From Hyperoplus lanceolatus (Eukaryota > Chordata > Actinopteri > Uranoscopiformes > Ammodytidae), in contig CM049417.1 of the NCBI GenBank assembly GCA_026929865.2, positions 20,260,001 through 20,324,000 on the forward strand: 64,000 nt of DNA, written 5' to 3'. The translations under genes and the position numbers were made by a program. The notes under the pieces were generated by a model. It saw nothing but the letters and a program-made list of their open reading frames with translations. It did no database searches and was not told where the DNA came from. Of this stretch, positions 22,150 through 51,777 are shown piece after piece (positions within the stretch are counted from its first letter, which is position 1; every line of letters begins with the position of its first letter).

Positions 22150-22259
22150 ATGTAATAACCGGACCCAGTGTGCTGTCGTGGCTGGCCCAGATGTGTTTCC
22201 TGACCCCTGCCCGGGAACCTACAAATATCTGGAAGTCCAATATGAATGTGTACCTTACA
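22150..22259 (+). CDS. adgrl3: adgrl3 exon: end of the lectin (SUEL) domain
   Basis: This internal exon encodes the last 36 whole residues of the rhamnose-binding-lectin (SUEL/RBL) domain of a latrophilin, an adhesion GPCR at neuronal synapses that binds teneurins and FLRTs. The translation starts [18 protein letters not shown] and ends [13 protein letters not shown], with three or four cysteines of the type that pair inside this domain. The acceptor is a T-rich tract ending TTTTTCCAG, and the donor is GTATGT at 22260. The exon is 110 bp: one base finishing an incoming codon, 36 codons, then one base (A) that begins the next codon, so it ends in phase 1. That base joins perfectly to the microexon at 47707 or directly to the exon at 50977. 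An L2-like repeat ends only about 32 bp upstream of the exon. Assignment to paralogue 3 rests mainly on the olfactomedin exon; a teleost duplicate cannot be told apart here. Confidence 0.95.
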
Positions 22260-33684: not shown

Positions 33685-34641
<957 letters not shown>

Positions 34642-36679: not shown

Positions 36680-38008
36680 ATTATACTTGATGTACAGTTT
36701 AGGTAGCAGGCTAAGTTTCTGCAGCATACAGAGAGACAGTGAACAAAAGTGGGCTGCAAGCAGATTACCTGCAACATTGTGTAAACTGTGATACTCTGGA
36801 GGATGGACCCACACAAGCATCCCCACCCCACATATCTTCAGTGGTTAGCAAGGCTTTAAGCAGTTAAAGGTGCTTATGTTACACCTGACTAGCTAATTGG
36901 CTATATAGCCTGCCAACTGATGTCGGCAGTGCTGTGGATGTTGGTTTTGTAGATCATTCAATAAGCTAATGTGCAGGATGAGACTGTCTTTGTTTGTAGA
37001 TACGTGTTAACCAGAAAGCTAATGTGGAGCTGCAGTTCAAAGTGTGATGCCTTTGTTGTTGTGTAGCAGGCTGCGAGTCAATGACCATCCATCTATGATT
37101 GAATGGTGATGTTGGTGATTCATGCAAACACATCCTGCGTTGGATGCTGTTTTCAACACTAAAAATCTTGGCCGGATGTAGTAGACATCCGGGTCTTTCT
37201 ATCCATCCTAAATCTGGCCACAATAGTACAAAGGATGCGATTCGGAACGCAGGGTCAGTGTAGGTGTCAGTGTTTTATCTTAACTTCCCAATGATTTCCA
37301 TATCATAGTCGTTTTTGGTAGTTGGGCAAAGCTTGGACTTGTCTTATACATTTTTCCAGTAATAACCCAACTTTTTGATTAAAATGCAGCGGCTCATTTT
37401 GGTAGATGTAATTATTATTTTCTTAACTACTTTATTTTTGGATAAAAAAAGAACACAAACACACAAGTGAAAAAGTGAACACACAAACACGTACTCTACT
37501 TAACATGTTTCTAAGGACATTGTTTAAATGAAAGGGTAAATGTTAAGCACAAAATAAAAAGTCAAAAAGTTGTCATGAAGATGATGATGATGTATATCCA
37601 GGAAAGGCTGCCATATCTGTTTAAATATGTCTGCTTTCCCTGAGATCTCATAATGGATTTTCTCCATATACATATAGAGTGCTAGAGAACTCCATGAGTC
37701 ACATATCGAAGCAGGCGGCTATCTCTTTATTCCAAACCTTAAGAATCATTTTAGCGATAACCATCCCATACTGGACAGACAAAGCTTTTGTACGACCTAA
37801 AGTCTATAGTTGTTGTGACGACCCTAACAACATGATAATGACTAACAAACAAGCTGTATATCTACCGTTACACAATGTGTATCATTTCATAATACAAAGT
37901 GTGGTGTAGCGTGGGTGCTGTATGCTGATCAAGCTTCTTGTAATGTCCATAAAGACTTCGATTTATACAACAAAAGTAAGGCTTTTATCTCAGTGTTTCC
38001 TCCCAAGC

Positions 38009-38356
<348 letters not shown>

Positions 38357-47540: not shown

Positions 47541-47706
47541 ATTATATAATATGATTAAATGCTTTGCGTGTCTCTTCCACTAACCCCATGCTCTTCCTCC
47601 ACTTTTTTGTGTGACTGCTGTAATAAAATATCTTGTCAATAATCTGTTCTTTCTTTTTGTTCTTTCTTTCTTTCTCTCTCTCTCTCCCCTTCATGCCTAA
47701 AAATAG
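47541..47706 (+). promoter_or_regulatory. adgrl3: Regulated 3' splice site of the KVEQK microexon
   Basis: After the AG at 47539-47540 there is no further AG until the acceptor at 47705-47706, an AG exclusion zone of about 164 nt. Such zones mark distant branch points; TGTGACTG near 47610 is a plausible one. From about 47645 to 47690 runs a CU-rich tract with repeated CTTTCTTTC and TCTCTCT blocks, the kind of element bound by PTBP repressors. A TGC at 47694-47696, 11 nt before the exon, fits the UGC motif used by the neural activator SRRM4. The motifs are seen; the binding proteins are inferred from known microexon biology. Confidence 0.7.
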
Positions 47707-47721
47707 AAGTGGAACAAAAAG
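47707..47721 (+). CDS. adgrl3: adgrl3 15-bp microexon encoding the KVEQK linker
   Basis: The 15 bases AAGTGGAACAAAAAG lie between an AG acceptor (47705-47706) and a GTAACT donor (47722). Spliced between the flanking exons they give VPY-KVEQK-VFLCPG, while skipping gives VPY-IFLCPG; both joins keep the frame because the exon is 5 codons long and the flanks are phase 1. KVEQK is the known optional insert (splice site A) of vertebrate latrophilins between the lectin and olfactomedin domains, and in latrophilin-1 it weakens teneurin binding. Upstream is a long CU-rich tract, an AG-free zone and a UGC motif, as expected of a neural-regulated microexon. The exon is far below the size that ORF callers or most annotation pipelines detect. 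What is seen is the sequence, splice sites and frame; neural regulation is inferred. Confidence 0.93.
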
Positions 47722-49059
47722 GTAACTAAATGCCAACAACTTTTCTTTTCATCTGCATTTTCAATTGAGGTGACATGCTTGCAATTTTAATTTTTTAATT
47801 TTGGTGATGGGTTGCCGAAGCACATTTTATGTATGTTTTAAACTTGTGCTCACTGTATGATTCATTGGGTAAAATACTGGAGCATCCAACATAGTGAATA
47901 TTGCAATGAAATACCTCCATCTGCATTATGTATTCATCCACAGTATCACTGATCAACAGGCCACATACATGATGAGTCTTAAGGGAGTAAAGTCATTACA
48001 GGACTGGCCTCTGGTAAAGCCTTGTCACACCTGGATGTTTTTTATTCCCTGCAATAACCCAAGATTATTCAGCTGCATATACTATTAAAGGAGAAGGCTG
48101 TACACTGGGCTGATCAATAGCTTGTCCAATAAACTGTCAGGATTTTTGATTATAGCTCTAACTTGATGATGGCTATAACCTTGAAGGGACTCTTGCCAGT
48201 CAATACTGGAGACAGATCATAGCATAGTCATATTCTTACCTTATCAGCACTGCACTGATTTTTTTGCAGAACATGCTAAATTCCCATTGACTACTTCACC
48301 CTTTGGAGCATTGTGTTTTGCAGTGTATAGCCTTTTGCACTGGAAACACGACAGTTTAGACCTATACAGTTTAGACCTGGATTCAAGTCAAAGATGGAAT
48401 CGTTAAGAGTCAAGAGCTCTCCTTTTAATAGCCGTGCCATTACATTTTCAAGTTTCATTGTAGTCATTAATTAACGGCACATCAGTGAACTCTATGGCAA
48501 AGAGAATGGCCAATGAAGGTGAAGGGGGCAGTTTGAAAATACTTTATAAAAATTGCTTCATAGAGATGACTGTGGTAAACCTTTTTTATGTGGTAATGCC
48601 CTGATTGCTTTTGTATTACTGCTCTAATATCTTTCATTCACTCCTCCAATCTTTTGTGCTTACGTGCCTTAAAACAAGTATATTTTACAACCACCGCAAA
48701 GCCAAGTGCGCTGTCAGTACAAAGCTTTGCTACTTTTTGACCTTGTATACCGAGCAACACCTCATCTTTGTCAGCCAAAGACAGGCCCCTCTTGGCTTTT
48801 TAGCAACCCGCTGAGATGTGTGCAAAAGGCCCCTGTGTCAACGGGACGCATCTTGGCACATTTTTTCCCGCCACACCTGCATGGTAGACTAGATGTTTAA
48901 TCTACAGAGATTACAAGGGAAAGAAAGCGCTGTTTTCTGGCTGTCTATGTCTCCTCTTCCTCGAGGAGCACACACAGCTTTTACCTCTCGACAGATCTGT
49001 GGCTAGAAGCTGTCAGCGCCATGTCAGACTCCGGGCCCATTACTGTGAAAGGAGCACTC

Positions 49060-50976: not shown

Positions 50977-51777
50977 TATTCCTGTGCCCAGGGCTTCTGC
51001 GAAGGGTGTACCAGAGTGAACACCTCTTTGAATCGGACCACCAGTCGGGAGCGTGGTGCAAAGACCCCCTCCAGGCCTCCGATAAGATCTACTACATGCC
51101 CTGGACTCCTTACCGCACCGACACCTTGACCGAATATTCCTCCAAAGAAGACTTTATCGCCGGAAGGCCTACGACCACGTACAAACTACCGCATCGCGTG
51201 GACGGAACGGGCTTCGTGGTTTACGACGGGGCGCTCTTTTTCAACAAAGAGCGTACCCGCAACATCGTCAAGTTTGACCTGCGGACGCGCATCAAGAGCG
51301 GCGAGGCCATCATCGCCAATGCCAACTACCACGACACGTCTCCGTACCGCTGGGGAGGGAAGTCGGACATCGACCTGGCCGTGGATGAAAACGGCCTCTG
51401 GGTGATCTACGCCACGGAGCAGAACAACGGGCGCATCGTCATCAGCCAGCTCAACCCTTACACGTTGCGCGTGGAGGGCACCTGGGACACGGCCTACGAC
51501 AAGCGCTCGGCCTCCAACGCCTTCATGATCTGTGGGATACTCTACGTGGTCAAGACGGTGTACGAGGACGACGACAACGAAGCCACGGGGAACAAGATCG
51601 ACTACATCTACAACACGGAGCTCAGTAAAGACGGCTTCCTGGACATCCCTTTCCCCAACTCCTATCAGTACATCGCCGCAGTGGATTACAATCCCCGGGA
51701 CAACCTGCTGTACGTTTGGAACAATTACCACGTCGTCAAGTACACGCTGGACTTTGGAGCACTGGACAACCGACTAG
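50977..51777 (+). CDS. adgrl3: adgrl3 exon: olfactomedin domain
   Basis: A single 801-bp exon encodes 266 whole or completed codons, from [18 protein letters not shown] to [10 protein letters not shown] plus one base of the next codon. It contains essentially the entire olfactomedin beta-propeller of latrophilin-3, the extracellular module that binds FLRT proteins in trans-synaptic adhesion. Two conserved cysteines, in GAWCKDP (about residue 28) and FMICGIL (about residue 186), form the family's disulfide. The segments [19 protein letters not shown] and [19 protein letters not shown] are hallmark propeller strands; their aspartates belong to the known metal-binding centre. The text matches paralogue 3 ([26 protein letters not shown]) rather than paralogues 1 or 2. 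The acceptor is CTCCTCAG and the donor is GTAAGA at 51778, phase 1. The exon is visibly GC-richer than the introns and open throughout. The next exon (the linker after olfactomedin) was not found before the window ends. Confidence 0.97.

Follow-up and report, generated by a model that had tools for sequence, protein, structure and literature searches.

In the window, the 64-kb stretch of Hyperoplus lanceolatus DNA analysed here, we found three exons of a latrophilin gene: the exon that ends the lectin domain, a microexon, and the exon of the olfactomedin domain (Table 1). In the joined translation, Pfam PF02140 covers residues 1-33, the final part of the SUEL lectin domain, and PF02191 places the olfactomedin domain in the third exon. 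The lectin exon is identical to the listed mouse Adgrl3 exon 8 at 36 of 36 residues and at 90 of 110 bases, and the olfactomedin exon matches the listed exon 10, which also has 801 nt, at 613 of 801 bases, both base counts coming from ungapped comparisons. At the protein level, the identity of the olfactomedin exon is 94% with mouse Adgrl3 over 265 residues, 76% with Adgrl2 over 263 residues, and 74% with Adgrl1, for which a partial sequence of 118 residues was compared. Moreover, the best four matches of a PDB search with the joined translation are the ADGRL3 chains 6vhh, 5ftt, 5afb, and 7wy5, each with KVEQK at the equivalent junction. The sequence comparisons support the assignment of the host gene to latrophilin-3 (adgrl3), as its sequence is nearer to ADGRL3 than to either of the other two, ADGRL1 and ADGRL2. 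Mouse exons 5, 6, 7, 11, 12, and 13, compared with the window in three frames, gave no convincing match; a stray match to exon 11 at 37325-37375 (E 0.002), the frame of which does not continue exon 10, was dropped as chance. The search for known RNA families in the window gave no hit at the gathering score. TRF reported 40 tandem-repeat rows in the window, and many of them are CA/GT runs (for example, at 34003-34204 and 38241-38355).

Table 1. Positions in the window of the adgrl3 exons and of the splice elements around the microexon.
Feature	Position	Strand	Description
adgrl3 exon, last part of lectin (SUEL) domain	22150..22259	+	110 nt; equivalent of mouse Adgrl3 exon 8; phase 1 end (TACA/GTATGT)
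Acceptor region of microexon	47640..47706	+	UC-rich tract, UGC at -13, then CUAAAAAUAG
15-nt microexon AAGTGGAACAAAAAG	47707..47721	+	Latrophilin splice site A (SSA), KVEQK; 15/15 bases as in mouse Adgrl3 exon 9; equivalent position in other latrophilin genes of the genome
Possible 12-nt version (MEQK insert)	47710..47721	+	Putative; would start after the second AG of the tandem acceptor TAGAAG
5' splice site GTAACT	47722..47727	+	+5 is the sole difference from GTAAGT
adgrl3 olfactomedin-domain exon	50977..51777	+	801 nt; equivalent of mouse Adgrl3 exon 10; GTAAGA after

The microexon has the makeup of the latrophilin splice site A: its length lies within 12-15 nt, it keeps the frame, it encodes KVEQK (the alternative being MEQK) in phase 1, and, within an ADGRL gene, it is flanked by the exon that ends the lectin domain and by the olfactomedin exon. 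The upstream sequence, ...CTAAAAATAG, ends in AG (TAG), and GTAACT follows downstream. The letters agree with the initial annotation, which had given the same 15 bases, position, preceding AG, and following GTAACT, and the distance to the olfactomedin exon, put there at 3.3 kb, amounts to 3,255 bases. In the 64-kb window, AAGTGGAACAAAAAG is present a single time on the + strand and absent from the - strand, and the 21-mer composed of AAGTGGAACAAAAAG and GTAACT has one match in the 806.7-Mb Hyperoplus lanceolatus genome. When the microexon is included, the junction reads ...PY-KVEQK-VF, and when it is skipped, ...PY-IF; the claimed change of the following residue from Val to Ile upon skipping is borne out by these translations (YKVEQKVF and YIF, respectively).

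How does this exon compare with the splice site A exons of mammals? Mouse Adgrl3 exon 9, as given in Table 4 of PMC13108381, is AAGTGGAACAAAAAG. The fish microexon shares with it all 15 bases, the phase, the lengths of the flanking exons (110 and 801 nt), and the change from Ile to Val at the junction upon inclusion. The identification of the insert as the known KVEQK of latrophilin-3 is thus upheld, both by these 15 bases and by the olfactomedin exon, which is closest to Adgrl3. In the same table, mouse Adgrl1 exon 7b is AAGTGGAGCAGAAAG, which likewise has 15 nt and encodes KVEQK at the equivalent place, with two of the 15 bases different and both differences synonymous. Exon 7a of mouse Adgrl1 begins 3 nt further upstream, whereas the fish window lacks the AG needed for such a start. 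For mouse Adgrl2 exon 9, that table prints the other strand; the exon reads TGGAGCAAAAAG (MEQK), is listed with 12 nt, and is the counterpart of the final 12 nt of the fish microexon, from which it differs at one of 12 bases. In contrast, the two adgrl2-like genes of the fish have 15 nt coding for KVEQK, and the 12-nt form exists there only as a possible second acceptor. The splice site A of latrophilins is already known in mammals, and the fish microexon is a conserved copy of it, rather than a new kind of element.

The genome was searched for further latrophilin genes. The olfactomedin exon gave 29 matches; the ones with at least 58% identity to the query belong to six loci, and matches at 47% identity or below were taken as other olfactomedin proteins. 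The lectin exon finds five of these six latrophilin-like loci. Two of them, C23 (the window) and C5:19.7 Mb, are adgrl3-like, with 94% and 93% identity to mouse Adgrl3, and C9 and C12 are adgrl2-like, with 85% and 82% identity to mouse Adgrl2. The presence of two adgrl3-type genes resembles the situation in zebrafish, with its lphn3.1 and lphn3.2 (PMC6629964). The loci C16 and C5:0.39 Mb are tentatively labelled adgrl1-like, because the Adgrl1 sequence compared is part of the exon; the middle olfactomedin piece of C5:0.39 Mb is 82, 78, and 81% identical to Adgrl1, 2, and 3, respectively. At the two adgrl1-like loci, the matches to the olfactomedin domain come in separate pieces, three on C16 and two on C5; the exon therefore appears to be split by introns there, whereas adgrl3 has one exon of 801 nt. 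In the frames of two C16 pieces, L021 and L015, stop codons were counted.

The degenerate AG-KVEQK-GT pattern AGARGTNGARCARAARGGT has four matches in the genome, all in the sense orientation within the lectin-olfactomedin introns of C23, C5:19.7, C9, and C12, and its reversed control has one. A pattern loosened at the middle codons has ten matches (reversed control, two), five in latrophilin introns and five elsewhere; all of these genome counts may be lower bounds. With a similar loosened pattern we found the C16 exon, which the strict patterns miss: at 1529941-1529959, in the readable part of the matching intron (5,000 of the 16,520 bases of this stretch are N), AAGTGGATCAAAAAG encodes KVDQK, a Glu-to-Asp variant, in similar surroundings. 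The SSA microexon is accordingly present in five of the six latrophilin-like loci (four with KVEQK and one with KVDQK), and the sixth is only partly readable. The readable sequence of this sixth locus, C5:0.39 Mb, yielded no lectin exon and no microexon; two of its four overlapping pieces contain 5,000 and 2,500 bases of N, and therefore the absence of the microexon there cannot be judged.

Could the microexon be a chance look-alike, a run of 15 bases in a long intron that is never spliced? The initial annotation had regarded this stretch as the only one in the intron that fits the phase-1 junction. Uniqueness by phase is rejected, as 88 of the 101 AG-15 nt-GT stretches in the host intron keep the frame, and this commonness speaks for a chance origin, as do the loosened-pattern matches outside the latrophilin introns. 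What stands of the claim is that just one of the 101 encodes KVEQK. From the base composition of the window, the degenerate 19-base AG-exon-GT pattern is expected about 6e-6 times on the + strand of the host intron, and AGARGTNGARCARAARGGT about 0.4 times across the genome, against the four matches observed, each in the right intron and orientation. In addition, the exon was kept while its flanks diverged: the microexons of the two adgrl3 copies (C23 and C5:19.7) are identical at 15 of 15 bases, and the flanking 98 bases on each side at 30/98 and 36/98, in an ungapped comparison that understates their likeness. The olfactomedin and lectin exons of these copies are identical at 661 of 801 and 92 of 110 bases, respectively. 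The full identity to mouse Adgrl3 exon 9, the strict genome matches, and the low expectation in the host intron lead us to reject a chance origin as highly improbable. Judged from its sequence and setting, the 15-nt microexon is almost certainly the SSA orthologue, the fish equivalent of mouse Adgrl3 exon 9, and this degree of confidence pertains to the identity of the exon. The suggestion that the exon would be missed by annotation fits methods based on open reading frames or homology, but not RNA-based ones, such as the zebrafish microexon study (PMC7821500), which reported 402 mouse-zebrafish microexon pairs, 16.1% of them without Ensembl zebrafish annotation.

The acceptor of the microexon is a tandem one, with the NAGNAG motif TAGAAG at 47704-47709. 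The same arrangement occurs in five of the five readable latrophilin genes (TAGAAG in four and CAGAAG in C5), and splicing at the second AG would shorten the exon to 12 nt, encoding MEQK in four genes and MDQK in C16. In mammalian latrophilins, MEQK is the short form of the insert (PMC7195488), and, according to the review PMC6629964, Lphn2 makes a shorter insert in addition to the common one; we infer that the mammalian short form is made through the NAGNAG tandem acceptor. If the two acceptors were used as a pair in the fish as well, three forms would result, one without an insert, one with the 12-nt MEQK, and one with the 15-nt KVEQK, and this would add to the SSA orthologue reading. The motif in every readable gene, the two insert lengths of mammalian Lphn2, and the two starts, 3 nt apart, listed for mouse Adgrl1 exon 7 (PMC13108381) argue for such paired use. 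However, the coding of Lys-Val in phase 1 nearly forces an AG at the second acceptor site, and the conservation of the motif is therefore weak evidence. An AAG is, furthermore, usually a poor acceptor beside TAG or CAG. Among the papers searched, none ties a NAGNAG to a latrophilin. On balance, paired use is doubtful. We consider still less probable the broader proposal that splice site A is a three-way switch kept across the vertebrate latrophilins, in which the NAGNAG would give none, MEQK, or KVEQK and would grade the Lec-Olf linker and thus teneurin binding; in fish, genes of the adgrl1, adgrl2, and adgrl3 types would all have access to this switch, and not adgrl2 alone.

We also examined the splice signals; the features and scores were selected post hoc, with the exon already identified. 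The pyrimidine fraction of the microexon (0.83) is the highest of the 88 frame-keeping 15-nt candidates, and its 5' site is the only one to score 6 or more (of 7). The UC run is found only at the microexon, UGC at 22 of the 88, and the two together only at the microexon. When all 774 frame-keeping candidates of 3-30 nt are considered, six have both the UC run and UGC, and four of the six reach a pyrimidine fraction of 0.75 or more: the microexon, its 12-nt version, and two 9-nt candidates whose 5' scores are 2 and 3. The UGC at -13 and the CT run upstream of the microexon constitute the Srrm4-type layout, and the combination of UGC with a UC repeat is described as the canonical layout of zebrafish microexons likely under Srrm4 (PMC12626420). 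The fish microexon thereby resembles Srrm4-type neuronal microexons, which have a UC-rich tract and UGC just 5', and its Srrm dependence is putative. Across the five SSA genes, UGC lies near the acceptor in four (C9 has CGC), and the strict UC run is present in four (not in C16). Neither "adgrl" nor "lphn" appears in the main texts of PMC12626424, PMC12626420, and PMC7821500.

The insert between Lec and Olf is reported to lower the affinity of mammalian latrophilins for teneurin (PMC7195488, PMC9902482, PMC6608557). According to the review PMC6629964, this effect was measured for Lphn1 with teneurin-2 and -4, and neurexin and FLRT binding showed no significant change. PMC10830413 lists E9 of Adgrl3 as one of five principal alternative sites and describes E6 and E9 as known regulators of teneurin binding. 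The variation of exon 9 among mouse Adgrl3 transcripts is reported in PMC13108381, together with the inclusion of the Adgrl2 counterpart, which is about 96% for glutamatergic cells, 84% for GABAergic cells, and 0% for endothelial cells. Other reports are more reserved: the SSA insert only "might modulate" function (PMC13269823), and the activation of ADGRL3 by the antibody LK30 is independent of the insert (PMC9902482). The passages of PMC11039983 do not mention the insert. The review PMC6629964, published in 2019, knew no reported latrophilin-teneurin interaction in zebrafish. It also gives the main Lphn3 isoform of the mouse brain as the one without the SSA insert, which counts against a simple switch in which the brain includes the exon.

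Is the microexon a switch in this fish? The exon could be real and yet constitutive, or nearly always skipped, in which case there would be no switch here. Steady inclusion would fit the acceptor tract and the 5' site, which are the best of the 88 candidates, and steady skipping would fit the predominance of the insert-free Lphn3 isoform in the mouse brain. In contrast, the microexon length, the UC-rich tract with UGC near the acceptor, and the variation of exon 9 among mouse Adgrl3 transcripts (PMC13108381, PMC10830413) argue against steady use of either kind, which we regard as unlikely. Regulated use of the microexon in Hyperoplus lanceolatus is probable, although less certain than the identity of the exon, and we infer that the fish brain uses it as a switch.

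Insert inclusion: Some transcripts would include the microexon, and others would skip it. Inclusion may be helped by the UC-rich tract and by the UGC near the acceptor, signals of a type associated with Srrm4.

Teneurin binding: By analogy with the mammalian work, in which Lphn1 was measured, the KVEQK insert would change the linker between Lec and Olf. The insert would then lower the affinity for teneurin and leave FLRT binding unchanged, as with mammalian Lphn1.

The exact coordinates of the microexon are hereby supplied for annotation. The five-residue Lec-Olf adhesion switch studied in mammals is retained base for base in fish adgrl3, and at least five of the six latrophilin-like loci of the genome have the microexon in the corresponding intron. 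Therefore, fish may be used for testing the role of the insert.
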